Shown: positions 14,815 to 29,993 of the stretch, piece by piece
Layout of the letters: each line of letters opens with the position of its first letter
Position numbering within the stretch: the first letter of the stretch is position 1
DNA from: Pseudodesulfovibrio sp.
Lineage (GTDB): Bacteria > Desulfobacterota > Desulfovibrionia > Desulfovibrionales > Desulfovibrionaceae
Reading direction: 5' to 3'
DNA length: 64,000 nt
NCBI GenBank assembly: GCA_016342345.1
Contig: JAEINO010000017.1
Span: 1 to 64,000 of the forward strand
Translations under genes and position numbers: made by a program
The notes under the pieces: model-generated
Seen by the model: the letters and a program-made list of their open reading frames with translations, nothing else
Told to the model about the DNA's origin: nothing
Database searches by the model: none

Positions 14815-15023
14815 AAACCAATTTTTATTGCTATTAGTGTCAATTTATCACTTTTCACAGTTTTTTATACTACCATTTATTACAAATATGTAGTTTAAGC
14901 CAGGTTAGACCTCTTCACTTTGACCAAAAATGTAAAGTTCTGGAATTTACTAAAAATGACCGCCGGTCACATATTTATTTAGTAATACACGCCATGCGCT
15001 TGATATTGCAGCAAATTTTTTTG

Positions 15024-15060
15024 TTGACAGAGAACTTCTCACGGTGTAGCTCTTTAAACC
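15024..15060 (+). promoter_or_regulatory. Putative promoter of the aro-trp operon
   Basis: A perfect -35 hexamer TTGACA at 15024-15029. The hexamer 17 bp downstream, TAGCTC (15047-15052), is a weak -10. If used, transcription would begin at about 15058-15061, at or next to the leader-peptide ATG (15061). The rest of the 14815-15023 interval towards amtB is AT-rich, with no ORF or recognised site. Confidence 0.5.
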
Positions 15061-15156
15061 ATGAACATCACCACAGGTTTACCCGCATACTTTTCCAACT
15101 TTTATTTTGGATATTGGCAGTTCCGCAATCGCGGTCTCCAGAGAGGTGCATTGTAA
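15061..15156 (+). CDS. Aromatic leader peptide of the aro-trp operon attenuator (31 aa)
   Basis: ATG at 15061, TAA at 15154-15156. Between codons 10 and 21 it reads YFSNFYFGYWQF, nine aromatic residues in twelve (Tyr three, Phe five, Trp one). Such density is typical of amino-acid-biosynthesis leader peptides and not of a functional protein. No Shine-Dalgarno is visible; the possible transcription start at about 15059 would make it leaderless. Its 3' half overlaps the 5' arm of an antiterminator, and a strong terminator follows. Predicted role: ribosome stalling at Tyr, Phe or Trp codons lets polymerase read into the aro genes. Confidence 0.85.
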   Translation: MNITTGLPAYFSNFYFGYWQFRNRGLQRGAL

Positions 15157-15233
15157 ACCAGGTGATGGATTACAACCAAACAAGCAAACCTCTTCAAGGG
15201 CCGCGGCACAAGCCGGCGGCCCTTGTTTTTTTT
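15130..15233 (+). promoter_or_regulatory. Aromatic amino acid attenuator (antiterminator/terminator switch)
   Basis: Segment 15130-15147, inside the leader-peptide coding region, can pair with 15188-15205 over 18 positions with one 3-nt internal loop and three G-U pairs (antiterminator). Segment 15195-15207 instead pairs with 15212-15225 (terminator). The two folds are exclusive. A third hairpin (15151-15156 with 15170-15175) contains the leader stop codon. A ribosome that completes the peptide covers 15130-15147 and favours the terminator. A ribosome stalled on the aromatic codons at 15088-15117 leaves it free. Pairings were read by eye. Confidence 0.8.
15195..15233 (+). terminator. Intrinsic terminator of the aro attenuator
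   Basis: A 10-bp perfect stem (15195-15204 with 15216-15225) extended by three more pairs (15205-15207 with 15212-15214, one bulged G), then eight T (15226-15233). It lies 61 bp upstream of the first structural gene, so it must be read through for aro expression. Confidence 0.9.
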
Positions 15234-15294
15234 AACGATGGCAGCCGGAATCCAAAAGCTTCGAGCACGAGGAAGAGACAACACGGGAGAGAAC

Positions 15295-16092
15295 ATGCAT
15301 ATAGGCAAAGCAATCAGGCTTGAAAGGATCATCAATCGCGATACGGGCCGCACCATTGTGGTTCCCATGGATCATGGCGTGACAGTCGGTCCCATCGACG
15401 GGCTGGTGGATGTGCGCACTGCGGTTGGCAAGGTTGTTGACGGCGGAGCAAACGCAGTCATTGAACACAAGGGGCTTGTCCGTTGCGGACACCGCGCCAA
15501 GGGCAAGGACATCGGACTTATCGTTCACCTGTCCGCATCCACATCCCTGTCTCCCTTTCCCAACGCCAAGAGTCTGGTAGCCTCTGTTGAAGATGCCATG
15601 CGCCTCGGAGCTGACGCAGTATCCATACACTGCAATCTCGGCGACGAAACCGAATCCGCCATGCTGGCAGATTTCGGCAAGGTTGCATCAGACGCCTCCA
15701 ACTGGGGCATCCCACTGTTGGCCATGGTCTACGCACGCGGTCCCAAGGTTACGAACGAATACGACCCGGAAGTTGTCGCCCATTGCGCCCGTGTCGGCAC
15801 AGAACTCGGTGCGGATGTTGTCAAAGTTCCCTACACCGGCGACATCAAAACCTTCACAAAAGTGTGCGACTCGTGCTGCGTTCCGGTTGTCATCGCTGGA
15901 GGCCCGAAACTTGACAGCACCGAAGCATTCCTTCAGATGGTTCATGATTCCCTTGAAGCCGGTGGTGCGGGTCTGTCTGTCGGACGCAACGTATTCCAGC
16001 ATGAAGACCCGACCCGTCTGGTCCAGGCACTGAACATGATTGTTCACGCTGACGAGACTGTCGAGGCTGCCCTGAACCACCTTAATGGATAA
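15295..16092 (+). CDS. 2-amino-3,7-dideoxy-D-threo-hept-6-ulosonate (ADH) synthase
   Basis: 265 aa, starting at the ATG after GGGAG ([11 protein letters not shown]). A frame opening at 15223 lies within the terminator and is rejected. It is a DhnA-like class I aldolase: [12 protein letters not shown] near the N-terminus, [12 protein letters not shown] in the middle, and VVIAGGPKL and [10 protein letters not shown] phosphate-binding strands at the C-terminus. Directly upstream of dehydroquinate synthase II it is the AroA' enzyme, which makes ADH from aspartate semialdehyde and a deoxy-ketohexose phosphate, replacing DAHP synthase in archaea and some Desulfovibrio. First structural gene of the operon. 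Confidence 0.9.
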
Positions 16093-16110
16093 CAAAAACT
16101 GGAATCCGTC

Positions 16111-17094
16111 ATGAAAAAAGTCATCTTCAAGTCCGTCCCCTTTGACAAGGAAATGCTCACCCTGGCTCTTGAGTCTGGCGTTGATGCAGTCATGGTAGAA
16201 AAGGAACATGTCAAGTCGGTCCAGGCTCTTGGACGTGTCACGGTCATCACTCCGCAAGACATGCCTGTGGTCGAACTGACAAAAAAGACAGACGAAGACG
16301 TTGCCATCGCCGGGATCAAAAAAGGACAGAACGTGGTCCTCAAAAAGGGATGGGAAATCATTCCCGTGGAAAACATCCTGGCTCAGGTGGACACATTGGC
16401 CCTTGAGTGCGAAAATCTGGACCGCGCCGTACTGGCCGCTGGCATCCTTGAACGCGGCTGCGACACCGTTGTCGTGCTGCCCGAAGGAGCTCTCGACCTG
16501 AAACAGATCGTCTCAGAACTCAAACTTTCACAGGGAACCATGGATCTTCAAGTCGCCACTGTCACCGCCATCGACTCCGCCGGACTGGGCCATCGTGTCT
16601 GCGTGGACACCATTTCCATGCTCAAGAAAGGCCAGGGCATGCTCATCGGCAACTCCAGCGCTTTCTCATTTCTGGTTCATGCCGAAACCGAATCCAATCC
16701 ATATGTGGCAGCACGGCCGTTCCGCATCAATGCCGGAGCTGTTCATGCCTATGCCCAGATGCCCGGCGACAAGACCAATTATCTGGAAGAACTCGGTGCA
16801 GGGTCCGACGTACTCATCGTCGGAGCTGACGGCGCAACCTCCATTGCAACCGTTGGCCGAGTCAAGGTCGAGGTCCGCCCCATGCTGCTCATCAAGGCAG
16901 AGGTCAAGACCAAGGATGGTGTCAAAGAAGGCCAGGTTTTCCTGCAAAATGCCGAGACCATTCGCGTGGTAACGGACAAGGGTGAACCCGTGTCAGTCGT
17001 CACCCTCAGGGAAGGCGACAAGATACTCGTCAAGACCGACGAAGCAGGCCGACATTTCGGCATGCGCATCAAAGAAGAAATCACCGAAGGCTGA
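16111..17094 (+). CDS. 3-dehydroquinate synthase II (AroB')
   Basis: Oxidatively deaminates and cyclises ADH to 3-dehydroquinate. 327 aa, the length of the archaeal family. Typical segments are VVLPEGALDLKQIV, CVDTISMLKKGQGMLIGNSS, RPFRINAGAVHAYAQMPGDK and the C-terminal GVKEGQVFLQNAETIRVV. It is unrelated to classical AroB. Separated by 18 bp from ADH synthase, its pathway partner, and overlapping or abutting pheA. Later shikimate genes (aroC, D, E, K) are not in the window. Confidence 0.95.
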   Translation: MKKVIFKSVPFDKEMLTLALESGVDAVMVEKEHVKSVQALGRVTVITPQDMPVVELTKKTDEDVAIAGIKKGQNVVLKKGWEIIPVENILAQVDTLALECENLDRAVLAAGILERGCDTVVVLPEGALDLKQIVSELKLSQGTMDLQVATVTAIDSAGLGHRVCVDTISMLKKGQGMLIGNSSAFSFLVHAETESNPYVAARPFRINAGAVHAYAQMPGDKTNYLEELGAGSDVLIVGADGATSIATVGRVKVEVRPMLLIKAEVKTKDGVKEGQVFLQNAETIRVVTDKGEPVSVVTLREGDKILVKTDEAGRHFGMRIKEEITEG

Positions 17095-17105
17095 TGGAGA
17101 AAATC

Positions 17106-18200
17106 ATGGCTGACAAAAACGACATTCCCGATCTGACCGAACTTCGCGTCAAGATTGATGAACTGGACAGCCAGATTGTCGACCTGCTCAACGAGCGGGC
17201 CAAAGTGAGCCTTGGCGTGGGTCGGTACAAGGCAGCCAACGACGAACCCATCTACAAGCCCTTCCGCGAACAGGAAGTCCTGAACAAAATCGCGGACTCC
17301 AGCCCCGGCCCCATGCCGGACAAGCACCTGCGGACAATATATCGCGAAATCATGAGTTCCTCGCGCCACCTGCAACGCCCGGAACGCGTGGTCTACCTCG
17401 GCCCGGAAGGCACATTTTCCTATTTCGCGGCCATCGAGCACATGGGCAGCACAGCCTCCCTCACCCCAAAAGCAAATTTCGAGGAAATATTTCGGGCTGT
17501 GGCAGAAGAAGGTGCCGAACTGGGCGTTATTCCGCTGGAAAACTCCATTGAGGGAACTGTTGGTCAGGTGGTGGATCTGTTCATGAAGTACAAGGTCTTC
17601 ATTCAGGCCGAAGTCTTCAGCCACATCAGCCACAACCTCATGTCCAAGGCCGACTCGCTCAAGGATGTGAAGGTAGTTTACTCCCATCCGCAGCCACTCG
17701 GCCAATGCCGGGAATGGCTCAGAAACCACCTGCACAATGTGCCGACCATACCCATGGAATCAACTGCGGAAGCGGCTGAACTGGTTGCAGGAAAAACAGA
17801 CGCCGCCGTTATCGGACACATCAAGCTGGCAGACATGCACGGCATGAACGTCCTGCAACAAGCCATTGAGGACATGCCGGACAACTGGACCCGTTTCCTG
17901 ATCATCGGAGCGGCCCCTTCCCGTGAGGACCGACGGGACAAGACAAGCATCCTGTTCACGCTCCCGGACAAGCCCGGCGCACTGGCACGGGTGCTCACCA
18001 CCCTGGCTCATCAGGGCATCAACATGACCAAGCTGGAATCACGCCCCTTTCGTGGAGAAAAATGGAAATACATGTTTTTCACTGACCTCGAATGCGACCT
18101 GACCAGCAAACAGCATGAAGAAGTGCTCGAAGATATCAGACAACAATGCCACACATTAAGAGTACTGGGCACCTATCCCACGCAGGAGGAAAGACAATGA
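17106..18200 (+). CDS. pheA: Bifunctional chorismate mutase / prephenate dehydratase PheA
   Basis: Converts chorismate to prephenate and then to phenylpyruvate for phenylalanine synthesis. About 364 aa from the ATG at 17106, which has GGAG six bases upstream; an ATG at 17094 overlaps the previous stop. Chorismate mutase occupies residues about 1-85 (LRVKIDELDSQIVDLLNERA). The dehydratase follows (VYLGPEGTFSYFAA, PLENSIEGTVGQ, and the catalytic NWTRFLII). The C-terminal ACT domain contains GALARVL and ESRP, the Phe-binding feedback motifs. Its stop overlaps the aroA start by 4 bp. Confidence 0.96.
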   Translation: MADKNDIPDLTELRVKIDELDSQIVDLLNERAKVSLGVGRYKAANDEPIYKPFREQEVLNKIADSSPGPMPDKHLRTIYREIMSSSRHLQRPERVVYLGPEGTFSYFAAIEHMGSTASLTPKANFEEIFRAVAEEGAELGVIPLENSIEGTVGQVVDLFMKYKVFIQAEVFSHISHNLMSKADSLKDVKVVYSHPQPLGQCREWLRNHLHNVPTIPMESTAEAAELVAGKTDAAVIGHIKLADMHGMNVLQQAIEDMPDNWTRFLIIGAAPSREDRRDKTSILFTLPDKPGALARVLTTLAHQGINMTKLESRPFRGEKWKYMFFTDLECDLTSKQHEEVLEDIRQQCHTLRVLGTYPTQEERQ

Positions 18201-19537
18201 ACAGGGAACCGATCATAATCAATGCACCCGCGTCCAAATCGCTCTCGCACCGTACCCTTATCGCCGCAGCCCTTGCCAACGGCGTGTCCGAAATTTCAGG
18301 GGCTCTGGACAGCGACGACATCACCCGCACCCGGCGATGCCTAGCCGCCTGTGGTGCAAGCATAAACGAGAAAGAGTCCATGCTCATCGTCACGGGCATG
18401 GAAGCTGGTCCCAGGGGTGGCAATGCCGATGGCAAGCACAAGGACCAAAAACCAGCAGAACTTTTCATGCACGAATCCGGCACCACCTGCAGACTGATGA
18501 CTGCCGTGGCAGCAGCGGGACACGGAACATTCAAGGTTCATGGCGCACCTCGCATGCACGAACGCCCCATGGCCGAACTGGTGACGGCTCTCGGCAAACT
18601 CGGCTCCAAATTTGCCTACGACAATAAAAAGGGATTCCTCCCCTTTGTCATGACCAGCAAGGGATATACCGGAAAAAAGGTAGACATAACCCTTGAGGAA
18701 AGCAGCCAATATCTTTCCGGCCTGCTTCTGGGAGCCCCCCTGGCAGACCATGAAACCATCATATCCGTCACTGGCAAGAAAGCCGTGTCCTGGCCCTATG
18801 TGGCCCTGACCTTGCGGATCATGGAAGATTTCAAGGCCGGCTTCGAAGTGGAGATCAAAAAAGGCAAAAAATGGCAGGCTGTTCCCTGGCGTTCGGTCAA
18901 GAATGCAACGCCCGGCGAAATCCGGTTCATCGTCCAGCCAACCAGCTACGAACCGACAAACTACCGTGTGGAAGGTGACTGGTCCAATGCCAGTTATTTC
19001 CTGGCCGCCGGAGCCGTTGGCAGAAACCCGGTGCTCATCAAGGGACTGGCAGCCGACTCACTTCAAGGCGACCGGGCCATCATGGATATTCTGAGCCAGA
19101 TGGGTGCCTCCATCAAGGTGAACTTCGATGGCATTCTCGTGGAACCAAGCCGACTGCGAGGCATCAAGGTGGACATGGGCCGCTGCCCGGACTTGGTGCC
19201 AACCGTGGCCGCAGCCGCAGCCTTTGCCGCGACTCCGACCACCATCACGAACGTGGCTCATCTGCGCATCAAGGAAACCGACAGGCTTCAGGCCTGCGCC
19301 ACGGAAGTGGCCCGCACCCAATGCGGAACAGAAATCGTCGAGGATAGCCTTATCATCCGCCCGAGCAGGCTTCCAAAGGGACGTACCATAGAATTCACCA
19401 CCTATGGAGATCACCGCATGGCCATGTCCATGTCCCTGTTCGAACTGGCCGGACTTGATGTCTCCTTTGACAACCCGACCTGCGTGGAAAAATCCTTCCC
19501 AAATTTCTGGGATGAATGGAAAAAGATCATCAAATAA
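18197..19537 (+). CDS. aroA: 3-phosphoshikimate 1-carboxyvinyltransferase (EPSP synthase) AroA
   Basis: Transfers enolpyruvate from PEP to shikimate-3-phosphate. 446 aa from the ATG at 18197, preceded by AGGAGG and overlapping the pheA stop (ATGA). Signatures: APASKSLSHRTLIAAALANG near the N-terminus, ESGTTCRLMTAVAA (the GTxxR loop), RMHERPM and the C-terminal LRIKETDRLQA plus YGDHRMAMS. A Lys-rich insert about 68-80 residues in is somewhat unusual. Member of the aro-trp operon. Confidence 0.96.
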   Translation: MNREPIIINAPASKSLSHRTLIAAALANGVSEISGALDSDDITRTRRCLAACGASINEKESMLIVTGMEAGPRGGNADGKHKDQKPAELFMHESGTTCRLMTAVAAAGHGTFKVHGAPRMHERPMAELVTALGKLGSKFAYDNKKGFLPFVMTSKGYTGKKVDITLEESSQYLSGLLLGAPLADHETIISVTGKKAVSWPYVALTLRIMEDFKAGFEVEIKKGKKWQAVPWRSVKNATPGEIRFIVQPTSYEPTNYRVEGDWSNASYFLAAGAVGRNPVLIKGLAADSLQGDRAIMDILSQMGASIKVNFDGILVEPSRLRGIKVDMGRCPDLVPTVAAAAAFAATPTTITNVAHLRIKETDRLQACATEVARTQCGTEIVEDSLIIRPSRLPKGRTIEFTTYGDHRMAMSMSLFELAGLDVSFDNPTCVEKSFPNFWDEWKKIIK

Positions 19538-19570
19538 CCTGACCAACCCACAACAGACAAGAATAGTATC

Positions 19571-20341
19571 ATGAGTGTTTCAGGCATAAACAAAATCGCC
19601 ATCGTGGGCGCAAGTGGCCAGATGGGAAGTCTTTTCTGCAAGGACTTCCGCAATCAGGGCTGTTTGGTCGCGGAATTGAATCGTCCCCTGACCGACGATG
19701 CCATCAGCGATGCCCTGGATGATTGCGACATGCTCCTGCTGAGCGTGCCCGTGACCAGCATGGACGGTGTGCTGGACCTCATGCTGCCACACCTGAAGCC
19801 CTCGACAATTCTCTGCGATGTCGGGTCGGTCAAAATGCTTCCCATGAAGTCCATGCTCGACAGACACGATGGTCCGGTCGTGGGAACCCACCCGCTGTTC
19901 GGCCCGGTGCTGCCGGAAGGATTCACTCCGCGAGTCGCCATCGTGCCGGGTCGCAAGACCGATGAACACGCTGCAAAAAAAATCAGCGCGCTGATGGAAT
20001 CATGCGGGTATGCCTGTTTCAACTCCACAGCCGAAGAACACGACAAGGCCATGGCCGTCATTCAGGGTCTCAACTTCACGTCCACTGTGGCTTTTCTGTC
20101 TGTAGCGAGAGACGTTGATTCCATTGAAAATTTCGTCACGCCATCCTTTCGGCGCAGACTTGATTCCGCACGCAAAATGCTCACTCAGGACACCGAACTT
20201 TTCGAGGTCATCTCCGAGGCAAACCCGTTTTTGCAGGAGACCAACCGCAAATTCATGTCCTACCTGAGCCTGGCCGCTGGCGGCGATCTCGACCTGCTTG
20301 CTGACCGGACTCTTTGGTGGTGGCGTAACGATTCATATTAA
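19571..20341 (+). CDS. tyrA: Prephenate dehydrogenase TyrA, whose 3' end doubles as trp leader
   Basis: NAD(P)-dependent oxidation of prephenate to 4-hydroxyphenylpyruvate for tyrosine. 256 aa. Rossmann motif KIAIVGASGQMGSLF at the N-terminus, VGTHPLFGP (catalytic histidine) near residue 100 and VIQGLNFTSTVAFL in the helical domain. No ACT or chorismate mutase domain. The last residues are RTLWWWRNDSY: three tandem Trp codons (20315-20323) six codons from the stop. The stop (20339-20341) is immediately followed by the antiterminator arm of the trp attenuator, so the gene end likely serves as a leader peptide for trpE. Confidence 0.94.
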   Translation: MSVSGINKIAIVGASGQMGSLFCKDFRNQGCLVAELNRPLTDDAISDALDDCDMLLLSVPVTSMDGVLDLMLPHLKPSTILCDVGSVKMLPMKSMLDRHDGPVVGTHPLFGPVLPEGFTPRVAIVPGRKTDEHAAKKISALMESCGYACFNSTAEEHDKAMAVIQGLNFTSTVAFLSVARDVDSIENFVTPSFRRRLDSARKMLTQDTELFEVISEANPFLQETNRKFMSYLSLAAGGDLDLLADRTLWWWRNDSY

Positions 20342-20424
20342 GGGGTGCGGCTTTTTTGCCGGACGCACGGATTACGTATTGTAACCGAGGCCGCACCCAT
20401 CAAGGGCGCGGCCTCATTTTTTTT
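20315..20424 (+). promoter_or_regulatory. Tryptophan attenuator using the tyrA 3' end as leader peptide
   Basis: Trp codons TGG TGG TGG at 20315-20323, tyrA stop at 20339-20341. Segment 2 (20343-20351) pairs perfectly over 9 bp with segment 3 (20390-20398) as antiterminator. Segment 3 (20387-20398) pairs instead with segment 4 (20404-20415) as terminator. A small hairpin (20368-20375 with 20381-20387) lies between, and segment 2 also has a shorter local partner at 20358-20368 (possible pause hairpin). A ribosome at the tyrA stop would cover segment 2 and favour termination. One stalled at the Trp codons leaves it free. Structures read by eye. Confidence 0.82.
20387..20424 (+). terminator. Intrinsic terminator of the trp attenuator upstream of trpE
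   Basis: An 8-bp perfect stem (20387-20394 with 20408-20415) extended by three C-G pairs (20396-20398 with 20404-20406) across one mismatch, a 5-nt loop, then eight T (20417-20424). It lies between tyrA and trpE in the same direction, so it reduces only trp transcription. Confidence 0.92.
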
Positions 20425-20438
20425 AAGGAAAGAGGAAC

Positions 20439-21899
20439 ATGATGAAAAAAATCACACTGACACAGCACGGGAAATGGCTTCCGGCTGACGTCCAGACGAC
20501 CATCAGTCTCTATATGGGGCTGGTGGGGGATCAGCCCGGAATCCTGCTCGAATCCGCGGAAGTGGACGGACGACTGGGCCGCTACAGCCTCATAGCCTGG
20601 GATTACCGTCTCATGCTCCACCCGGTGGATGGCAAGCTCGTTGTCGAGACCTCGGACGATCGACTTGCCTCCCTAAAAGAACTTGAAGGGATGCTCTATC
20701 TTGACGGCGTGAGAAAAGCCGTGGAAACACTCAACATCGTCCAGAAATCCGAAGGAGGCAACAGCCGTGACGGCCTTCCCGGTCTGACACGCGGACTGTA
20801 CGGCTATTTCGGATATGGCGTTGCAGGCATGTTCGAACGAAAACTCACCAAGATCTGCAAGCCCGCCGATGCCGAAGCGTGTCTTGTCCTGCCGGGCCAA
20901 ATCGTCCTGTTCGACCACCTGCGCCACTCCTGCTGCTACCTCAGCCTGGACAAGGGCGCAACACCCAAGCCAGCCCCTCTGGGATGGGGTGCCGACCTGA
21001 CCGCCCCGGAAGCCGGAACACCCACGGTCCACCCTGGAAAAGAGGAATACATGGCCGGGGTGGAGCGGTGCAAGGAACTGATAGCCGAGGGCGAATGCAT
21101 CCAGGTGGTGCTCTCCACCCGGTTCACGGTTCCGGTACCAGACGACCCATTCCGCATCTATCGACGCCTGAGGCAGGCCAACCCATCGCCATTCATGTTC
21201 TACATGAAATTCCCGAACTGTTCGTCCATGGGCAAAACCTGCGGCACCACACTACTCGGTTCCTCACCGGAAATGATGGTCCGCAGCACTAACGGACAAT
21301 TGGAGGTCCGACCCATTGCCGGTACCCGTTGGAGAGGCGAAACCGAAAAGGAAGACATACGGCTTGAAAAGGAACTGCTGGCCGACCCCAAGGAACGAGC
21401 CGAACACGTCATGCTCGTTGACCTGGGCCGCAACGACCTGGGCCGCATTTCAAAACCCGGCACTGTCACCGTCGAAAAATTCATGAATGTCGAAAGATTC
21501 TCCCACGTCATGCACCTCACATCCTATGTTGAAGGCGAGTTGAAAAACGGACTGGACAGCGTGGATGTGCTCCAGGCCACATTCCCGGCTGGAACCCTTT
21601 CGGGCGCACCGAAAATCCGGGCCATGGAAATCATCGCGGAACTGGAACCACAGGATCGCGGACCGTATGGCGGCTGCATCGGTTGGATGGGACTGGACGA
21701 CGGCGTGATCAGCCTGGACACAGGCATCACCATCCGGTCCATGTGGGTTCGTGACGGCGTCTGCCACTGGCAGGCCGGAGCGGGGATCGTCTACGACTCC
21801 AACGCCGAATCCGAATGGAACGAGTGCCACAACAAGGCTCGCGTGCTCCTGGAAGTCATCACCGGAAAGGGAGGCACCGATGTTTTTGCTGATCGATAA
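20439..21899 (+). CDS. trpE: Anthranilate synthase component I TrpE
   Basis: Makes anthranilate from chorismate using ammonia from the TrpG subunit. 486 aa. The Trp feedback motif LLES is at residues 36-39. The C-terminal chorismate-binding core contains IQVVLSTRF, RPIAGTRWRG, LVDLGRNDLGRI, HLTSYVEG and FPAGTLSGAPKIRAMEII. AGAGGA at 20431-20436 precedes the tandem ATGs at 20439 and 20442. First gene after the trp attenuator; it overlaps trpG by 20 bp, which should couple translation of the two subunits. Confidence 0.97.
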   Translation: MMKKITLTQHGKWLPADVQTTISLYMGLVGDQPGILLESAEVDGRLGRYSLIAWDYRLMLHPVDGKLVVETSDDRLASLKELEGMLYLDGVRKAVETLNIVQKSEGGNSRDGLPGLTRGLYGYFGYGVAGMFERKLTKICKPADAEACLVLPGQIVLFDHLRHSCCYLSLDKGATPKPAPLGWGADLTAPEAGTPTVHPGKEEYMAGVERCKELIAEGECIQVVLSTRFTVPVPDDPFRIYRRLRQANPSPFMFYMKFPNCSSMGKTCGTTLLGSSPEMMVRSTNGQLEVRPIAGTRWRGETEKEDIRLEKELLADPKERAEHVMLVDLGRNDLGRISKPGTVTVEKFMNVERFSHVMHLTSYVEGELKNGLDSVDVLQATFPAGTLSGAPKIRAMEIIAELEPQDRGPYGGCIGWMGLDDGVISLDTGITIRSMWVRDGVCHWQAGAGIVYDSNAESEWNECHNKARVLLEVITGKGGTDVFADR

Positions 21900-22452
21900 T
21901 TTCGACTCATTCACCTTCAATCTGGTGCAGGCCTTCCAGCAGCTTGGAGCCGACCCGACCGTCATCCGTAACGACCGCGAGGAAATCCTGAGACTGGCCA
22001 CCAGTGGAAAGCTCGAACGCGTGTGTCTTTCCCCCGGCCCGAGCCACCCGGAAAACGCGGGCTTTTGCCTGGAATTCCTGGCCAGACTGCCCAAGGAAAT
22101 CCCGGTACTCGGCGTGTGTCTCGGTCATCAAACCCTGGGGCACTTCGCAGGCGCACCTGTTGAACGCGCCGAACGGATCATGCACGGCAAGACCTCCATG
22201 GTCCATCACCATGATGATGGAATCTTTGCAGGACTCCCCAACCCCTTTGAAGTCTGCCGCTACCATTCGCTGATCGTCCCGGCAGAAAAAGCGGCTGACA
22301 CCATCGAAGTGACCGCACAAACCAGTCGCGGTGAAGTCATGGGACTCAGGTACAAGGACCGCCCATGGTTCGGAGTCCAATTCCACCCGGAATCAATCCT
22401 GACCCCCAACGGACCGAAACTCTTACAGAACTTTCTGAACATAAAAGGATAA
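21880..22452 (+). CDS. trpG: Anthranilate synthase glutaminase subunit TrpG
   Basis: Class I glutamine amidotransferase that supplies ammonia to TrpE. 190 aa from the ATG at 21880, which has GGAGG just upstream. LLIDNFDSFTFNLVQAFQQL is the canonical N-terminus, the nucleophile Cys is in VLGVCLGHQTLGH, and the His-Glu pair is in GVQFHPESILTP. Not fused to trpD, unlike the enteric arrangement. Overlaps trpE by 20 bp. Confidence 0.97.
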   Translation: MFLLIDNFDSFTFNLVQAFQQLGADPTVIRNDREEILRLATSGKLERVCLSPGPSHPENAGFCLEFLARLPKEIPVLGVCLGHQTLGHFAGAPVERAERIMHGKTSMVHHHDDGIFAGLPNPFEVCRYHSLIVPAEKAADTIEVTAQTSRGEVMGLRYKDRPWFGVQFHPESILTPNGPKLLQNFLNIKG

Positions 22453-22456
22453 GATC

Positions 22457-23470
22457 ATGACCATTACAGTCTCGGAAGTCCTGGAACTTCTGGCCCAGAG
22501 AAAACCCCTGAACGACGCCCAGGCCGACTTCATGTTCACCGAACTCATGGACGGCAATCTGACCGATGCCCAGACCGGTGCCTTCTTCATGGGCCTTCGC
22601 GCCAAAGGTGAAGACTCCACGGACCTGGCTGCAGGCGTCCGCGCCGGGCTGGCCCATGCACTCAAAATACCCGGCTTTGACGGCACACGCCCGGAGCCGG
22701 TGATCGATACCTGTGGCACAGGCGGTGACGGTCAGTGCAGTTTCAACAACTCAACCGCGGTTTCCCTGTTTCTGGCCGATATGGGATATACTGTCGCCAA
22801 ACACGGCAACCGCGCCCTGTCGTCCTCCTGCGGCTCGGCTGATGCGCTGGAAGCCCTGGGCGTTCCTCTGGAACAAACACCGGAAGAGGCCGCAGCAGGA
22901 CTTACCAAGTACAACTTCGCCTTCCTGTTCGCGCCCGCATATCACCCGGCATTCAAACATGTCATGCCCGTGCGCCAGCAACTCGGCATCCGCACCCTGT
23001 TCAACTTCATGGGCCCGCTCCTGAACCCGGCCCGCCCCTCGCACCAACTGCTCGGCGTGGGCGCACCTGACAAACTGGAACTCATGGGCGAAACCCTGCT
23101 GCTGACCGGCGTACATCGTGCACTCATATTCTCGGGCGCGGACGGATTCGACGAACTGACCACCTGGGGCGTGAACCGAGGTCATCTCATCCATGACGGT
23201 GTCATGGAAAAAACCACGGTTATCCCGAATCAGCTCGGGTTCAAGGCCCATGATCCAAATGCTGTACGAGTGAATGGCAAGGACGATGCCGTATCCAAAC
23301 TAAAGGACATTCTGGCCGGGAAAGGCCCGGAAGCCATGATGGACATGGTGGCCCTGAATCTGGCAGGGTGCCTCCATCTTCTCGACAAAGGCACCATGCG
23401 CGAGTGCGCTGACATGGCCCGAGACATCGTGAATCAAGGACTACAAAAAGGAATCCCCTATGCTCAATAA
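22457..23470 (+). CDS. trpD: Anthranilate phosphoribosyltransferase TrpD
   Basis: Adds the phosphoribosyl group of PRPP to anthranilate. 337 aa. The PRPP loop is DTCGTGGDGQCSFNNST, the second site KHGNRALSSSCGSAD, and RTLFNFMGPLLNPA is the family signature. It begins 4 bp after trpG and overlaps trpC by 11 bp. Confidence 0.97.
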   Translation: MTITVSEVLELLAQRKPLNDAQADFMFTELMDGNLTDAQTGAFFMGLRAKGEDSTDLAAGVRAGLAHALKIPGFDGTRPEPVIDTCGTGGDGQCSFNNSTAVSLFLADMGYTVAKHGNRALSSSCGSADALEALGVPLEQTPEEAAAGLTKYNFAFLFAPAYHPAFKHVMPVRQQLGIRTLFNFMGPLLNPARPSHQLLGVGAPDKLELMGETLLLTGVHRALIFSGADGFDELTTWGVNRGHLIHDGVMEKTTVIPNQLGFKAHDPNAVRVNGKDDAVSKLKDILAGKGPEAMMDMVALNLAGCLHLLDKGTMRECADMARDIVNQGLQKGIPYAQ

Positions 23471-24230
23471 ATTCAGAGAAGCCAAACAACCCGAACTCGA
23501 AAGCCTCAGAAAGAACTTCATGGAAGGCCATGTTCCCGCCGTATATCACGGAGAACGTCCCTCTTTCGTGGATGCCATCAAGGCCAAGGGACCGGGAGCA
23601 ATCATCGCCGAATTCAAACCGGCCAGTCCGAGCAAGGGCATCCTGCGCGAGAACATCAACCCGCTGGATTTTGCGGACATGTATGCCGACAACGGTGCGG
23701 CAGCCATTTCCGTGCTCACCGAAGACAAATACTTCAAGGGCACCCCGGATTTCCTCTTCATGATGAAGGAACCCGGCGTGCCGCTGCTGCGCAAAGACTT
23801 CATATTCGATCCGCTACAGGTGGCCATGACCGCATCCAGCCCGGCCTCGGCCGTACTGCTCATTGCTCGTATGTCAGGGTCTGCGGCCGAATTGAAGCAA
23901 CTCGTTGACATTGCCCGCATGCCCGGCCTTGCACCGGTGGTCGAAATCTTTGACCAAGCCGATCTGGACATGGCCCGCGAAGCCGGAGCCGACATCATCC
24001 AAGTCAACAACCGCGACCTGAAGACTCTTGAAGTGAATCTCGACCAATCGAGAAAATTCATTCAGCAGAAGAAGGAAAACGAACTGTGGATATGCGCCAG
24101 CGGCATATCCGAACGGGCACAGGTCGAAGAGATGGCAAGCCTCGGGTTCGATGCCATTCTTGTCGGAACCTGCCTGATGCAGGCCGAAAACCCCGGCGAA
24201 AAACTGGCCGAATTGTCAGGAGCCAAGTAA
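23460..24230 (+). CDS. trpC: Indole-3-glycerol-phosphate synthase TrpC
   Basis: Ring closure of CdRP to indole-3-glycerol phosphate. 256 aa TIM barrel: AIIAEFKPASPSKG at the first catalytic strand, VLTEDKYFKGTPDFL, LLRKDFIFDPLQ, and IIQVNNRDLKTLEV near the C-terminus. A monofunctional enzyme, since trpF is a separate gene. Its stop is directly followed by the trpF ATG. Confidence 0.97.
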   Translation: MLNKFREAKQPELESLRKNFMEGHVPAVYHGERPSFVDAIKAKGPGAIIAEFKPASPSKGILRENINPLDFADMYADNGAAAISVLTEDKYFKGTPDFLFMMKEPGVPLLRKDFIFDPLQVAMTASSPASAVLLIARMSGSAAELKQLVDIARMPGLAPVVEIFDQADLDMAREAGADIIQVNNRDLKTLEVNLDQSRKFIQQKKENELWICASGISERAQVEEMASLGFDAILVGTCLMQAENPGEKLAELSGAK

Positions 24231-24857
24231 ATGCCACGGCCCCTGATCAAGGTGTGCGGCATGACCCGCATGGAAGATGTCAATCTCTGCATGAAGCTTG
24301 GCGTGGACCTTTTGGGATTCATTTTCCACCCATCCAGCCCGCGCAACGTGGCCCTGGATTTCGCAGCCTCGATCAAGACCGGAAAACTGACCAAAGTAGG
24401 CGTGTTCGTGAATCAATCCGCCTCCGAAATTATCGAAATCATGGATCAATGCGGGCTGCATGCAGCCCAGCTCCACGGAGGGCAGGACCTGGCCTTCTGC
24501 GAAACCATCGGCCCGGACCGGGTGATCAAGGTCTTATGGCCCGGCACCTACGCATCCGAAAGCTCCTTTCTCAGGGATATCGAAGACTACTCTGAAGTCT
24601 GCGGCCATTTCCTGTTCGATGCGGGCAAGACCGGCCATGGGGGAACAGGTCAATCTATTGATTTTGATATAATACAACATATTGAAATTCAAACACCTTG
24701 GTTTTTAGCGGGCGGAATCGGACCCCATAATATAGATGCTGCCATGGCTACAAATCCTCCTGGACTCGACATCAATTCAGGAGTGGAAAAAACGCCGGGC
24801 ATCAAGGACGAAAAAAAATTGCGAGAGGTTTTCGATCATCTCGCAAGGGTGACATAA
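24231..24857 (+). CDS. trpF: Phosphoribosylanthranilate isomerase TrpF
   Basis: Amadori rearrangement of PRA to CdRP. 208 aa. KVCGMTRMEDV holds the catalytic Cys, LLGFIFHPSSPRNV follows, FLFDAGKTGHGGTG carries the catalytic Asp, and LAGGIGPHNI and GLDINSGVEKTPGIKD form the phosphate site. The stretch 24650-24800 is more AT-rich than its surroundings but stays in frame. Starts immediately after the trpC stop and ends 1 bp before trpB. Confidence 0.96.
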   Translation: MPRPLIKVCGMTRMEDVNLCMKLGVDLLGFIFHPSSPRNVALDFAASIKTGKLTKVGVFVNQSASEIIEIMDQCGLHAAQLHGGQDLAFCETIGPDRVIKVLWPGTYASESSFLRDIEDYSEVCGHFLFDAGKTGHGGTGQSIDFDIIQHIEIQTPWFLAGGIGPHNIDAAMATNPPGLDINSGVEKTPGIKDEKKLREVFDHLARVT

Positions 24858-24858
24858 A

Positions 24859-26022
24859 ATGAAAAAAGGCTATTTTGGAGACTTCGGCGGCCAGTTCATT
24901 CCCGAACTGCTCATGCCGCCGCTTCTGGAGTTGGAAGAAGCCATGGAGACCATCCTCCCATCCGAGGAATTCCAAACGCGCTTCATCAACATGCTCAAGG
25001 AAAACGTGGGCCGCCCCTCGGCCATCACATATTGCCCGAACCTGTCCAAGGACCTCGGCCTTGACCTGTGGCTCAAACGCGAGGACCTGAACCATTCTGG
25101 CGCACACAAAATCAACAACACACTGGGCCAGGGACTCCTTGCCAAGATGATGGGCAAAAGCACTCTTCTGGCCGAGACCGGCGCAGGAATGCACGGCGTT
25201 GCCACTGCCGTGGCCGCAGCCATGCTCGACATGAAATGTCTGGTCTACATGGGCGCAACCGACATTGTGCGCCAATCCCCCAACGTCAACCGCATGCGGC
25301 TGATGGGTGCGGAAATAGTGTCTGTTGAATCCGGCACAAAAACCCTCAAGGACGCCATCAACGAGGCCCTGCGCCGTTGGCTTTCCGACCAGGAAACCAC
25401 ACACTACTGTTTTGGCACTGCGGCAGGACCACATCCCTTTCCGACCCTGGTACGCGAATTCCAGCAAGTCATTTCACGGGAAGCCCGTCAACAGTATATG
25501 GACCGCAACGACAACGCCTTGCCCGATGTGGTAGTGGCCTGTGTCGGAGGTGGCTCCAATGCCATCGGCATGTTCCATCACTTCGTGCCCGACAAATCCG
25601 TCAAACTTGTAGGCGTCGAAGCGGCTGGAACCGGCGAACCGGGTTGTGACAATTCCGCCCCGCTCAGCATTGGCACTGACGGAATACTGCACGGCATGAA
25701 AACCAAGCTGTTGCAGACCGACGAAGGCCAGATCCTGCCGTCCCATTCCGTGGCCCCGGGCCTGGACTACCCCGGCGTTGGACCGGAACATGCCAACCTG
25801 CACAAGACTGGTCGCGCCCAGTATGTGACCATCAACGATTCCCAGGCAATCAACGCCTTTAAGACCCTGTCCCGGCGCGAAGGTATCATCCCCGCGCTGG
25901 AGTCTTCCCATGCCGTGGCCTACGCCCTTGAGAACAAGGACGAACTGCACGGCAAGTCCGTGCTCGTCTGCCTGTCAGGGCGTGGCGACAAGGACATGGG
26001 CATCGTTGATTCCATACTTTAG
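24859..26022 (+). CDS. trpB: Tryptophan synthase beta chain TrpB
   Basis: PLP subunit joining indole and serine. 387 aa. The start YFGDFGGQFIPELLMPPL is typical. The PLP lysine is in LNHSGAHKINNTLGQ, the catalytic Glu in AETGAGMHGVA, and the phosphate loop is CVGGGSNAIGMFH. Separated by 10 bp from trpA, its alpha partner. Confidence 0.98.
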   Translation: MKKGYFGDFGGQFIPELLMPPLLELEEAMETILPSEEFQTRFINMLKENVGRPSAITYCPNLSKDLGLDLWLKREDLNHSGAHKINNTLGQGLLAKMMGKSTLLAETGAGMHGVATAVAAAMLDMKCLVYMGATDIVRQSPNVNRMRLMGAEIVSVESGTKTLKDAINEALRRWLSDQETTHYCFGTAAGPHPFPTLVREFQQVISREARQQYMDRNDNALPDVVVACVGGGSNAIGMFHHFVPDKSVKLVGVEAAGTGEPGCDNSAPLSIGTDGILHGMKTKLLQTDEGQILPSHSVAPGLDYPGVGPEHANLHKTGRAQYVTINDSQAINAFKTLSRREGIIPALESSHAVAYALENKDELHGKSVLVCLSGRGDKDMGIVDSIL

Positions 26023-26032
26023 GAGATATGAA

Positions 26033-26794
26033 ATGAATCCCATGCAAATACAGATCGAAAAGGCCACCAGACAAGGCAAGGTCGGCCTGATCCCCTTTCT
26101 CCCAGCAGGATTCCCCAACCGGGAACAATTCTGGAAGGAACTTGAGGAACTGGACGCGGCCGGAGCTGCGGTCATAGAAATCGGCATGCCCTTCTCCGAC
26201 CCAGTGGCTGACGGGCCCGTGGTGGAAAAGGCATCCCTCAAATGCCTGGATGACGGCATCAACCTGACCTGGATTTTTGACGGTCTCAAGGAGCGCAAAG
26301 GGCAATTCAACGCCGCCCTGCTGCTCATGGGGTACCTGAATCCGGTCTACCAATATGGTGTGAAATCATTCGCTTCCAACTGCGAAAAAGCGGGCGTGTC
26401 CGGGCTCATCATCGCGGACCTGCCGCATGAGGAATCGGACTTCCTCAAAACAGCCCTCGCCCCGCACGGCGTCTCGCTGGTTCCGCTGGTCGGCCTGAAT
26501 ACCAGCAAGGAACGCATGAAACTCTATGCCAAAGGCGCGAGCGGCTTCTGCTACTTCGTATCGGTCCTTGGCACCACGGGACAACGCGAAGCCCTGCCTG
26601 CCCGCATCAAGGAAAAACTGACAGCGGCCAGGGAAATATTCGATATCCCCATTGCTCTTGGCTTCGGCATCAAGCACCCGGACCAACTCACCCCGTTCAA
26701 GGGACTGATGGACGCTGCCGTGTTCGGTTCCGCACTCATAACCCACATCGAAAACGGCAAATCCAGTGCCGAATTCATGAAGCCATGGAAGTAA
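26033..26794 (+). CDS. trpA: Tryptophan synthase alpha chain TrpA
   Basis: Cleaves indole-3-glycerol phosphate to indole, which is channelled to TrpB. 253 aa from the ATG at 26033, preceded by AGGAGA. LIPFLPAGFP, the catalytic Glu in VIEIGMPFSDPVADGP, LIIADLPHEE (catalytic Asp) and the flexible-loop region are present, but this is a shorter, slightly divergent TrpA. Last gene of the operon; a terminator and repeats follow. Confidence 0.95.
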   Translation: MNPMQIQIEKATRQGKVGLIPFLPAGFPNREQFWKELEELDAAGAAVIEIGMPFSDPVADGPVVEKASLKCLDDGINLTWIFDGLKERKGQFNAALLLMGYLNPVYQYGVKSFASNCEKAGVSGLIIADLPHEESDFLKTALAPHGVSLVPLVGLNTSKERMKLYAKGASGFCYFVSVLGTTGQREALPARIKEKLTAAREIFDIPIALGFGIKHPDQLTPFKGLMDAAVFGSALITHIENGKSSAEFMKPWK

Positions 26795-26846
26795 ACAATT
26801 CCGGCAAGTTACCGATAATCGAAAACCACAACCAATGAACAGACAG

Positions 26847-26886
26847 GCCCTGGAGGACATGAAACACTCCAGGGCTTGATTCTTTT
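26847..26886 (+). terminator. Terminator of the aro-trp operon
   Basis: A 9-bp perfect stem (26847-26855 with 26867-26875), an 11-nt loop and a T-rich tail (26876-26886). The 3' arm and tail also begin the first unit of the tandem repeat that follows. Confidence 0.85.
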
Positions 26887-27218
26887 AAATCACCCTTCAT
26901 TCCAAAATTCCCATGCAAGCTGGCGAGAAAGGTGTGAGTGCAAGGCGCGAAAAATAAGCAAGACCGACGCGTACTTCCTGTACGTTAGGGTTTGATTGTT
27001 TTGAAGCAACGCAGCAATCACGCCCGACAGGCACTCAAAATGCTCCAGGGCCTGATTTTTTTAAATCACCCCTCATTCCAAAATTCCCATGCAAGCTGGA
27101 GAGAAAGGTGTGAGTGCAAGGCGCGAAAAATAAGCAAGACCGACGCGTACTTCCTGTACGTTAGGGTTTGATTATTTTGAAGCAACGCAGCAATCACGCC
27201 TTTCTCTCCAGCTTGCAA
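26867..27218 (-). repeat. Tandem direct repeat (176-bp period) related to the dispersed palindromic elements
   Basis: Unit 1 (26867-27042) and unit 2 (27043-27218) match closely for about 158 bp, including the terminator 3' arm and its tail. Each carries, inverted relative to copy 1 at 5352, the shared core CGCGTACTTCCTGTACGTTA followed by TTTGATT and AAGCAACG. Unit 2 has extra outer inverted arms (about 27088-27105 with 27198-27215) that make it palindromic. The whole 26795-27241 interval has no gene. Downstream of trpA and upstream of the glycosyltransferase. Confidence 0.8.
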
Positions 27219-27241
27219 GTAAGGCGGGTATCATATAGCGA

Positions 27242-28834
27242 ATGTTCATCATCATGAATACGCCCAACAAAAAATATACTCTGCGTCTGGATATCATCGC
27301 ATTCGTCATCATTGCAGCCTCATTTGCCCTGCGCTACTGGTTTGTGGACAGCGGCCAATTGAATCTGGTTCAGGATGAGGCGCAATACTGGGACTGGATT
27401 CGCCGCCCACAGCTTTCCTATTATTCCAAAGGCCCGCTCATTGCCTGGATCATCACCACATGGTGCACGGTATTCGGCAACACGGAAATGGGCGTGCGAT
27501 TCGGCGCGGTACTCGGCATGACGGGCATTCAGGCAGCGTTGTACATTGGCGTATCCAGAGTCTGGCGGGAATACAGGCTGGCCCTATATGTCCTGTTCAT
27601 AGCCGCCACCATGCCGCTCCTGAACGGACTCGGCATCCTGATGACCACGGATAATCCGCTCATTTTCTGCTGGACGGTCGGATTCTTTGCCCTGGCTGCG
27701 GCCACACGCAACAAACCGGATCATACGCCCGGAGACTGGCCGTTCATCATTCTGGGCATCTGTCTGGCCGTGGGCATTCTTGCCAAGTACATGATGCTCG
27801 CATTCCTCGGACTGGGCACGGCATATGCCATCATCCTGCAACTTCGCGGACAACTCCCTCCCCGATTCTGGTTCCGATTCCTGATCGCGGCGATTGCAGG
27901 AACGATCATCGGCCTACTGCCCATAGCCCTCTGGAACATCGATAATGACTGGGTGGGATTCCGGCACGTAGCCAAGCTTTCCACCGGGCAGGACGTACCT
28001 CTCACAATCAGGTTCGGTCCCTTCCTTGAGATGCTCGGCGCGCAAATAGGCCTACTGGCTCCATGGTGGCTGATCTTCATCCTCATAGGCAGCCGGGCAG
28101 CCATCAGAAAAACATTTTTCGGTCCCATCGGATCATTCGACCATGCCTACAGACGCGATCTCCAGGCAACGCTGTTCTTCTGGCCCCTGTGGGCAGCCAT
28201 CACTCTCTGGGCCTTGAAATCCAAAGTGGAGGCCAACTGGACCGCTGCGGCATTTATAGGTGGAGCGCTCCTGGGCGGAATGGCCTTGCAGGGATGGTGG
28301 GAAGCCCCGCATCGAAAAACTCGCGGCAAAGCACTCCTTGCCGGAGTTGCCATCGGCGTCACCCTGTTCATCTTCGCCTCACCGCAATTCCAGGTTCAAG
28401 ACACTCTGAACCCCACCCACAGGCTCAAGGGATGGTCGGACCTCGGCAAGGAAATCGACAGATTGAAACAAACCGAATTCGACAACCCGGATACGGTCTT
28501 CTTCATGAGCGACAAATACAACCTCACCTCGGAGTTGGCCTTCTACAGCCAGGGCCAGCCATTTGCATACTGTGCCTGGATCGACAACAGACGGATGAAC
28601 CAATACGACCTGTGGCCCGGACCGGACACGGACAAAATCGGCTGGGATACAGTCGTTGTACGCAAACGATTCCAGAACAACACTCCGCCGGAACTCGTCA
28701 AGATGTATGACTCGGTCAGCGAGCCCATTTTCTACCAAACAACATTCAATGGCCGACCGGCCCGCACGTTTACCCTGTTCATCTGCAAAAACTTCAATGG
28801 ATACTGGCCACGAAAAGGATTCGGCAAATATTAG
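27242..28834 (+). CDS. Membrane glycosyltransferase, PMT/ArnT-like (GT-C fold)
   Basis: 530 aa with about 10-12 predicted membrane helices. The first periplasmic loop carries NLVQDEAQYWDW, the acidic DE motif typical of ArnT and dolichyl-phosphate-mannose transferase relatives, followed by LSYYSKGPLIAWII. Such enzymes use a polyprenyl-phosphate sugar to modify lipid A, glycans or proteins in the periplasm; the acceptor cannot be read here. ATGs at 27242 and 27254 are both possible and there is no clear ribosome-binding site. Stands alone after the repeats. Confidence 0.82.
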   Translation: MFIIMNTPNKKYTLRLDIIAFVIIAASFALRYWFVDSGQLNLVQDEAQYWDWIRRPQLSYYSKGPLIAWIITTWCTVFGNTEMGVRFGAVLGMTGIQAALYIGVSRVWREYRLALYVLFIAATMPLLNGLGILMTTDNPLIFCWTVGFFALAAATRNKPDHTPGDWPFIILGICLAVGILAKYMMLAFLGLGTAYAIILQLRGQLPPRFWFRFLIAAIAGTIIGLLPIALWNIDNDWVGFRHVAKLSTGQDVPLTIRFGPFLEMLGAQIGLLAPWWLIFILIGSRAAIRKTFFGPIGSFDHAYRRDLQATLFFWPLWAAITLWALKSKVEANWTAAAFIGGALLGGMALQGWWEAPHRKTRGKALLAGVAIGVTLFIFASPQFQVQDTLNPTHRLKGWSDLGKEIDRLKQTEFDNPDTVFFMSDKYNLTSELAFYSQGQPFAYCAWIDNRRMNQYDLWPGPDTDKIGWDTVVVRKRFQNNTPPELVKMYDSVSEPIFYQTTFNGRPARTFTLFICKNFNGYWPRKGFGKY

Positions 28835-29057
28835 CATTTCAATGAATCTATTTTTACTAGATTGACCTGACGACCGAGCACCATGAATCCATTTTTTATA
28901 GACCTACCTCCAAAATACTCAGTAATAACAAACAGGCCGCGCATGCAGGTCCTCCAAAGGATTTGTCGATCCGCCCTCCACAGAGTAACACCATGGCAAG
29001 CTTCTTGCTTTATTGGTCACCGGGTGGAGCCAGTCCAATAACCGGATAGGCACAAAT

Positions 29058-29846
29058 ATGAATATACTCAGACTTACACTAATCCTCACCATCACCGTTC
29101 TCCTGCCAGGATGCGCAGCAATACCCTTTGGCATCGGGCTTATCCCCGGTGCTCCTGCCTATATATCCTCACTCATCGGCAACGGCCAATCCGCATACGA
29201 AATGGCCGTTGACGAACGCACCTCGGAACAACAGATGCTTGACGCCATCATAGAGGGCCACACCCAGGCCGAACTCTACAAGCACAAGGAAATAAGAGCG
29301 ACCCAGATCACGGCCCACTGCTATTTCGGCAAACTCTACCTTGTAGGCGAATACGACTCGCAAGAACAACTCAAACAGATTTACGAATGCGTAAACAAGG
29401 TAAAAGACAAACGTGCAGTGATCAGCCGCCTCTATCTCAAAGAAGATCAGGACGAACAGAATTTCTTTTCCAAACAGGCCATGTACGCGGATATACGGAC
29501 GCAACTCACTGCCGACTTCGAGGTCACGAGTTCGCCCATAGATGTTGAGATAGTTCAAGACGATATAATCTTGCTCGGAGTCATTTCGGACAAGGAAGAA
29601 CGAAACAGGATCATGGCCCATGCCTTCAACACCGATGGCGTGAACCGGGTCATTTCCTACCTCTACCATCAGGAAAATGCCGGACCGGAACCACATATCA
29701 TGACCGCAGAAATGATCCCGTCCCTTTCAGGAATCCCCTCTCAGGGTTTCAAGAAAAAGAGAATCAAATTCTCGCCAAAAAACAGAGCAAAAACGGAATC
29801 TCCAAGGCCTCTCGTGGCTGTGCGCAACCCCGACAGGGGACGATGA
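29058..29846 (+). CDS. BON-domain outer-membrane lipoprotein (DolP/OsmY-like)
   Basis: 262 aa starting at the Met before NILRLTLILTIT. The signal ends in a lipobox, VLLPGC, so the protein is lipidated. Two BON domains are likely: about residues 50-125 (KHKEIRATQITAHCYFGKLYLVGEY) and about 140-215 (IRTQLTADFEVTSSPIDVEIVQDDIILLG split by a short loop). The tail is basic and disordered. DolP-type proteins help maintain outer-membrane integrity. A hairpin (about 29014-29036) lies in the leader. A strong terminator follows. Confidence 0.8.
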   Translation: MNILRLTLILTITVLLPGCAAIPFGIGLIPGAPAYISSLIGNGQSAYEMAVDERTSEQQMLDAIIEGHTQAELYKHKEIRATQITAHCYFGKLYLVGEYDSQEQLKQIYECVNKVKDKRAVISRLYLKEDQDEQNFFSKQAMYADIRTQLTADFEVTSSPIDVEIVQDDIILLGVISDKEERNRIMAHAFNTDGVNRVISYLYHQENAGPEPHIMTAEMIPSLSGIPSQGFKKKRIKFSPKNRAKTESPRPLVAVRNPDRGR

Positions 29847-29873
29847 CTCCAAAACCTCAATCCCAGCCACATC

Positions 29874-29903
29874 AAAACCGTCCGCCAACTCGCGGACGGT
29901 TTT
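29874..29903 (+). terminator. Intrinsic terminator after the BON lipoprotein gene
   Basis: A 12-bp perfect stem (29874-29885 with 29892-29903), a 6-nt loop, then C and five T. It could act in both directions because the 5' arm begins with four A. Confidence 0.9.
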
Positions 29904-29993
29904 CATTTTTACCACATGTGCCGACACCATCGGACGATAATAATACTCCCCGACCTTGCTTCTGATATTCTCGGAAGGACAAGGGGGAACACG

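Follow-up and report, generated by a model that had tools for sequence, protein, structure and literature searches.

A ribosome-mediated Trp attenuator probably governs trpE and the trp genes that follow, with the 3′ end of tyrA as its leader frame; judging from the sequence of one junction and of its relatives, we put the probability of this reading at about 0.85. The junction lies in a 64,000-nucleotide stretch of DNA (the window), whose genus was called Pseudodesulfovibrio from its named neighbours (L031–L034). As in a trp-type attenuator, tandem codons for the end product stand in a translated frame, a terminator precedes trpE, and an antiterminator shares an arm with that terminator. The dedicated short leader peptide typical of the class is absent, and the frame is that of tyrA itself.

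Architecture of the tyrA-trpE junction

All features described here lie on the forward (+) strand. The tyrA gene (19571–20341) encodes a prephenate dehydrogenase of 256 residues (Pfam PDH_N, 7e-16, over the cut-off), whose C-terminus reads ...ADRTLWWWRNDSY. As the sequence-only reading had stated, the gene ends with TGG TGG TGG at 20315–20323, which encode W249–W251 and are the sole Trp codons of this tyrA, and with a TAA stop at 20339–20341, 15 nt past the last Trp codon. Segment 2, the 5′ arm of the antiterminator (GGGTGCGGC, 20343–20351), is perfectly complementary over 9 bp to GCCGCACCC at 20390–20398, again as originally described, and gains two pairs when folded. Its partner belongs to segment 3 (20387–20398), an arm that, from folding and covariation, is shared between the 3′ side of the antiterminator and the 5′ side of an intrinsic terminator. 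Segment 4 (20404–20415) forms the 3′ arm of that terminator, and the stem is followed by an A and eight T (U tract, 20417–20424). This pairing and U tract were correctly recognized from the outset, except that one A·C mismatch in the otherwise 11-bp stem had gone unmentioned. The trpE ATG, at 20439, is 14 bases beyond the terminator (20387–20424).

The two junction hairpins are mutually exclusive and of similar strength. The alternative hairpin (20339–20400) folds at −27.6 kcal/mol (z = −3.68) and the terminator stretch (20384–20424) at −24.6 kcal/mol (z = −7.03), and in both cases 0 of 200 shuffles were as good. When the whole junction is folded, as had been proposed for checking the idea, 20300–20430 adopts the terminator conformation (−48, z = −2.65, equalled by 5 of 200 shuffles). 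A protective or pause hairpin, in which 20358–20368 would pair back on segment 2, is a weak candidate: the fold of 20339–20386 that contains it reaches −15.2 kcal/mol (z = −1.77) and was equalled by 10 of 200 shuffles, and only 3 of its pairs appear in the consensus of 28 sequences.

Searches for other kinds of signal at the junction were negative. A consensus scan for sigma-70 promoters and terminators over 15000–27000 found no promoter-like site between tyrA and trpE. Nor did it list the junction terminator, probably because the A·C mismatch interrupts the stem; its 15 terminator-like sites were no excess over the 14.4 expected from shuffles. In the window, the interval from tyrA to the terminator showed no ORF of its own with Trp codons. 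Rfam gave no match at the junction, whether over 15000–30000 at E up to 1 or in the window and eight relatives at the gathering score, and no T-box was matched ahead of trpE in these searches of the window and the eight relatives.

The junction sits within a long aromatic operon. We take the gene order in the window to be aroA'-aroB'-pheA-aroA-tyrA-trpE-trpG-trpD-trpC-trpF-trpB-trpA, all in one direction, the names other than tyrA and trpE being assigned from translations and order. The first gene of the controlled trp operon, trpE (20439–21899), was identified from the ORF list and by Pfam and NCBIfam, and trpE-G-D-C-F-B-A presumably reaches about 26794, the genes after trpE again being named from translations and order. 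Ahead of the whole operon, a classical leader peptide, MNITTGLPAYFSNFYFGYWQFRNRGLQRGAL (15061–15156; 4 Phe, 3 Tyr and 1 Trp), forms a first stage with its own terminator, a hairpin plus T8 recognized by eye at 15195–15233. An Rfam match to BjrC68 at 15170–15232 (E = 0.023; 23.4 bits, cut-off 39) falls on this terminator and was judged to be chance. Among 20 relatives in which aroA' was located, 18 have an F/Y/W-rich leader ORF ahead of it, and none was found within the 420 nt searched in the other two (L250 and L251). The leader also occurs in the g16 and g19 genomes examined, both without the tyrA attenuator. Because this classical Phe/Tyr/Trp leader precedes the entire aro-trp operon, control looks two-tiered, with one leader for the whole unit and the tyrA element as a putative Trp-only second stage. 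The sequence-only reading, whose central claim of 2:3 versus 3:4 attenuation at the end of tyrA is supported, had not mentioned the upstream leader. In D. vulgaris, a joint aro-trp unit was already known, with a putative attenuator before aroA' (PMC1173090, Table 7).

Trp codons, pairing arms and their spacing among relatives

A TyrA was located in 58 of 60 near relatives and in 209 of 219 genomes of the order Desulfovibrionales, to which these sulfate-reducing bacteria belong. We read 149 tyrA junctions, comprising the 58 near-relative genomes and 91 others hand-chosen to span genera, and called an attenuator where the Trp box and trpE are separated by a terminator. A rule-based search gave 89 of 149, and three loci were added by hand: L002, with a terminator found and trpE off the contig, and L018 and L020, with a weak U tract recognized by eye. 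The arrangement thus occurs in 92 of 149 junctions from 24 genera and 6 families, 36 of them from Pseudodesulfovibrio. Left out of these counts were L120/G216 (no stop in the stretch), L240 (fetched in its place), near-duplicates (L031–L034), named contigs (L035–L040), distant TyrAs (L041–L047) and duplicates (L076–L078). Some junctions carry extra, partly repeat-rich sequence between an intact attenuator and trpE (L057, L059, L128, L129, and L005, L008 and L009, in which the tyrA-trpE gap is 525–858 nt).

The tandem Trp codons, whose conservation in relatives had been named as a check, are present in all 92 attenuator loci across the six families, with 91 reading WWW and one WWF. Two of the three residues are likely kept for the protein. 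In 65 selected TyrAs, with and without trpE behind, W250 never varies and W251 is conserved at 90% or more. In the TyrA model (mean pLDDT 94.2, the last six residues averaging only 73), the triplet ends the last helix (residues 240–251). Among 21 sampled g15 genomes in which no trpE was found behind tyrA, 18 retain WWW, as do g34 and one of four g26 genomes, while g22, g30 and g45 retain it with trpE present and no terminator found. WWW alone therefore proves nothing, and its retention in g15 led us to reject it as proof by itself. These observations would suit an explanation in which WWW belongs to the structure of the TyrA C-terminal helix and the trp/tyr ratio is fixed, with no sensing, by an ordinary or partial terminator, which we nevertheless consider unlikely in view of the third residue, W249, and of the competing helix described below.

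At W249, all 92 attenuator loci have Trp, vs. 26 of the 53 typed others (four were untyped, and L164, counted among the 26, becomes YWW on alignment by eye). Counted by genus, the figures are 24 of 24 with the attenuator vs. 5 of 20 without (Fisher 7e-8, kinship ignored), and in most attenuator-less genera the residue is replaced by A, T, R, G, S, K, L, H or V. Within f4g12, six genomes with the attenuator and trpE have KALWWWR, and one without trpE in the 1.5 kb read has KARLWWQ. In g16 and g19, where trpE is 5–8 nt away with no terminator, the residue is A or T in 6 of 6. The remainder of the protein follows a similar pattern: TyrA lacks any Trp ahead of the box in 86 of 92 attenuator loci vs. 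14 of 57 others. Independent-pairs tests on the TyrA tree pointed in the same direction for W249 (2.3 pairs the same way, 0 opposite, median p 0.5) and for absence of other Trp (1.2 vs. 0.1, median p 1), but were non-significant because the tree offered too few supported pairs (only 3). Across these sequences, W249 and the Trp-free remainder of TyrA appear as the parts that go with the attenuator, W249 being the informative residue. In this respect the original proposal needs a correction, the sensing codons being regulatory only in part.

The covarying arms, likewise named as a check in relatives, were found for both helices. In 28 Pseudodesulfovibrio sequences, 98.0% of cells in the 2:3 helix are paired, with only 3 doubly changed pairs, and 97.7% in the 3:4 helix, with 4; within the genus, the covariation score of each was reached by 0 of 500 shuffles. 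Among genera (24, one locus each), segment 2 scored 522 with its own segment 3, against a mean of 413 when re-paired, and 0 of 20,000 re-pairings scored as high. A fixed terminator would need no such conserved, covarying competitor at a constant distance from the Trp codons. Individual loci differ in how well the helix can be told from composition: in 23 of 90, shuffling the G-rich stretch that holds segment 2 gave helices just as good (p over 0.1), amounting to 2 of 34 in the window's genus vs. 21 of 56 elsewhere. In the far families, segment 2 pairs mainly, by eye, with the loop-side half of the terminator arm.

For spacing, segment 2 was taken as the best helix anywhere from +6 to the terminator, counted from the last Trp codon, in 90 loci (the 92 minus L018 and L020). 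Its start falls between +11 and +23 (median +17, with an sd of 2.4 nt), whereas the tyrA stop ranges from +6 to +42 (sd 8.3). The distance is constant and the stop variable, so the switch is anchored on the Trp codons and not on the stop. A need to keep segment 2 clear of a ribosome stalled on those codons would predict this. In Pseudodesulfovibrio, segment 2 usually follows the stop and is not translated. Many other genera have it within the coding sequence, where similar nucleotides encode differing residues (KGGP, RGGV, QEGC, RGSA). In L051 (G013), tyrA stops early (WWWRNET) and the codons beyond still read MEDCA, resembling the EDC tail of its neighbour L050; segment 2 is at an unchanged distance, so that the stop has moved and the RNA element has not.

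The spacing also bears on whether Trp is the signal at all. In E. coli rph-pyrE, whether transcription terminates before the second gene depends on translation at the 3′ end of the first, itself a structural gene; UTP and polymerase pausing provide the signal, and neither amino-acid-sensing codons nor a 2:3 antiterminator take part. The tyrA element resembles it in using the translated 3′ end of a structural gene as leader, and in both cases the frame ends beside the switch, so one might suppose that the mere presence of a ribosome at the end of tyrA, and not Trp-tRNA, sets termination, the signal being general coupling of translation and transcription. We regard this as very improbable, since segment 2 is spaced from the Trp codons and not from the stop, and since a sensor of general coupling would not require tandem Trp codons or an otherwise Trp-poor TyrA. 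The sign would also be opposite to that of pyrE, where a close ribosome means readthrough, and the tyrA element, unlike rph-pyrE, has both sensing codons and an antiterminator.

Finally, folding allows a further small hairpin between segments 2 and 3 in the window, which could be taken to favour control of the 2:3 pairing by an RNA-binding protein, a small RNA or a metabolite in place of a ribosome on tyrA. The chance of this seems to us minimal: genera share no conserved sequence between segments 2 and 3, Rfam is silent at the junction in the window and eight relatives, and segment 2 starts before the stop, within translated tyrA, in 54 of 90 loci, so a ribosome must cross it. Sensing of Trp by a ribosome on tyrA remains the reading we prefer.

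A small UGA-containing ORF beside the proposed attenuator

At 23 of the 36 Pseudodesulfovibrio junctions, a conserved 25-codon ORF, preceded by a Shine-Dalgarno-like sequence, lies between the terminator and trpE. It is located about 90 nt past the tyrA stop and reads MNGT-UGA-KKSENRKKIKGWQVIPRPYH; L022, L004, L006, L013, L026 and L029 are among the loci that carry it. The fifth codon is an in-frame TGA in all 22 distinct sequences, and changes are mostly silent (1806 vs. 1173 not, over the whole ORF and all sequence pairs). In L002, L003, L005, L008 and L009, only the start (ATG NNN GAY ACR TGA AAG) survives and the rest is degenerate; either these first codons serve some separate role or the decay is recent. 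Eight junctions, the window's included, have no trace of the ORF, and it was not found elsewhere in the window's own genome. Searching 219 genomes located it in 20 of 28 Pseudodesulfovibrio, once each, with 2 weak partial matches among the other 191.

Neither Pfam nor NCBIfam gave a match at E up to 1 for two versions of the ORF, one version had no match in a plasmid collection, and no consensus hairpin of note was found at the ORF. Its UGA could encode selenocysteine, be read by tRNA-Trp, or belong to a stalling peptide. A tRNA-Sec scored over the cut-off in 35 of 36 Pseudodesulfovibrio genomes, so its presence or absence is uninformative on how the UGA is read.

Proposed mechanism and relation to known systems

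In the E. coli trp attenuator (trpL), tandem Trp codons set a 2:3 antiterminator against a 3:4 terminator with a U tract before trpE, and it is from this system that we infer the response of the tyrA junction to Trp. Under a shortage of charged tRNA-Trp, a ribosome on tyrA would stall at the TGG triplet, with its front edge ending short of segment 2, 11–23 nt downstream. Segment 2, left free, would pair with segment 3 and block the 3:4 terminator, and RNA polymerase would proceed into trpE. When Trp is plentiful, the ribosome would reach the tyrA stop and cover or melt segment 2; segment 3 would then pair with segment 4 and transcription would stop after tyrA, leaving the upstream shared and Phe/Tyr genes expressed. 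The separate Phe/Tyr/Trp-rich leader would gate the entire unit, and the tyrA element would add a Trp-only gate.

One expression data set would fit a control break at the junction. Between 0.1 and 10 MPa, the portion of PMC4162548 available to us lists trpE, trpG and trpD as changed in RNA-seq of D. hydrothermalis, and does not list tyrA, pheA or aroA, nor trpC or trpF; if that strain carries the element, this pattern is compatible with such a break, and it says nothing of Trp.

The tyrA element shares with E. coli trpL its codons, the 2:3/3:4 logic and the position directly ahead of trpE and, in Pseudodesulfovibrio, a stop codon just ahead of segment 2. It differs in having no dedicated leader peptide, the sensing codons being near the end of a full-length enzyme gene of another branch. 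It is also internal to an operon, it lacks a clear 1:2 pause hairpin, and it has no Rfam match. The aroA' attenuator of D. vulgaris belongs to the same operon but, as described in the part of PMC1173090 available to us, lies upstream of the whole operon with its own small peptide, and that part reports nothing on the tyrA-trpE junction. The tandem attenuators of Salmonella mgtCBR likewise place more than one attenuation stage on one operon, although in the available part of PMC3641672 they are short ORFs in one leader, whereas here the stages are about 5 kb apart and the second is in a structural gene. We found no description of an attenuator in the tyrA 3′ end in the open-access literature, including the available parts of PMC1173090, PMC5343134, PMC4162548, PMC545781 and PMC2965389, a body that leaves subscription journals mostly outside. 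As far as that literature shows, codon-sensing attenuation with the sensor inside a structural gene is a new combination.

A broader possibility, on which we are evenly divided, is that TyrA has been shaped order-wide by an RNA switch, making it enzyme, leader peptide and Trp sensor in one within a two-stage aromatic circuit. The features behind this idea are the terminal Trp triplet, the scarcity of other Trp, and last residues that encode the antiterminator in many genera. Since completing TyrA itself takes Trp, a cell starved of Trp would then also make less TyrA, leaving more chorismate for Trp synthesis.

Attenuation by tandem codons is textbook biology, and leader peptides are usually sought as small separate ORFs. 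One broad attenuator screen, in the part of PMC2965389 available to us, trimmed candidates at the border of the upstream gene and would on that account omit the tyrA sensor. If structural genes can carry sensors, current counts of operon-internal attenuators may be too low, and the conservation of some protein tails may have RNA reasons. For Desulfovibrionales, the tyrA attenuator would offer a testable answer to how the trp genes are controlled, TrpR regulons having been reconstructed only in gammaproteobacterial lineages in the available part of PMC5343134.
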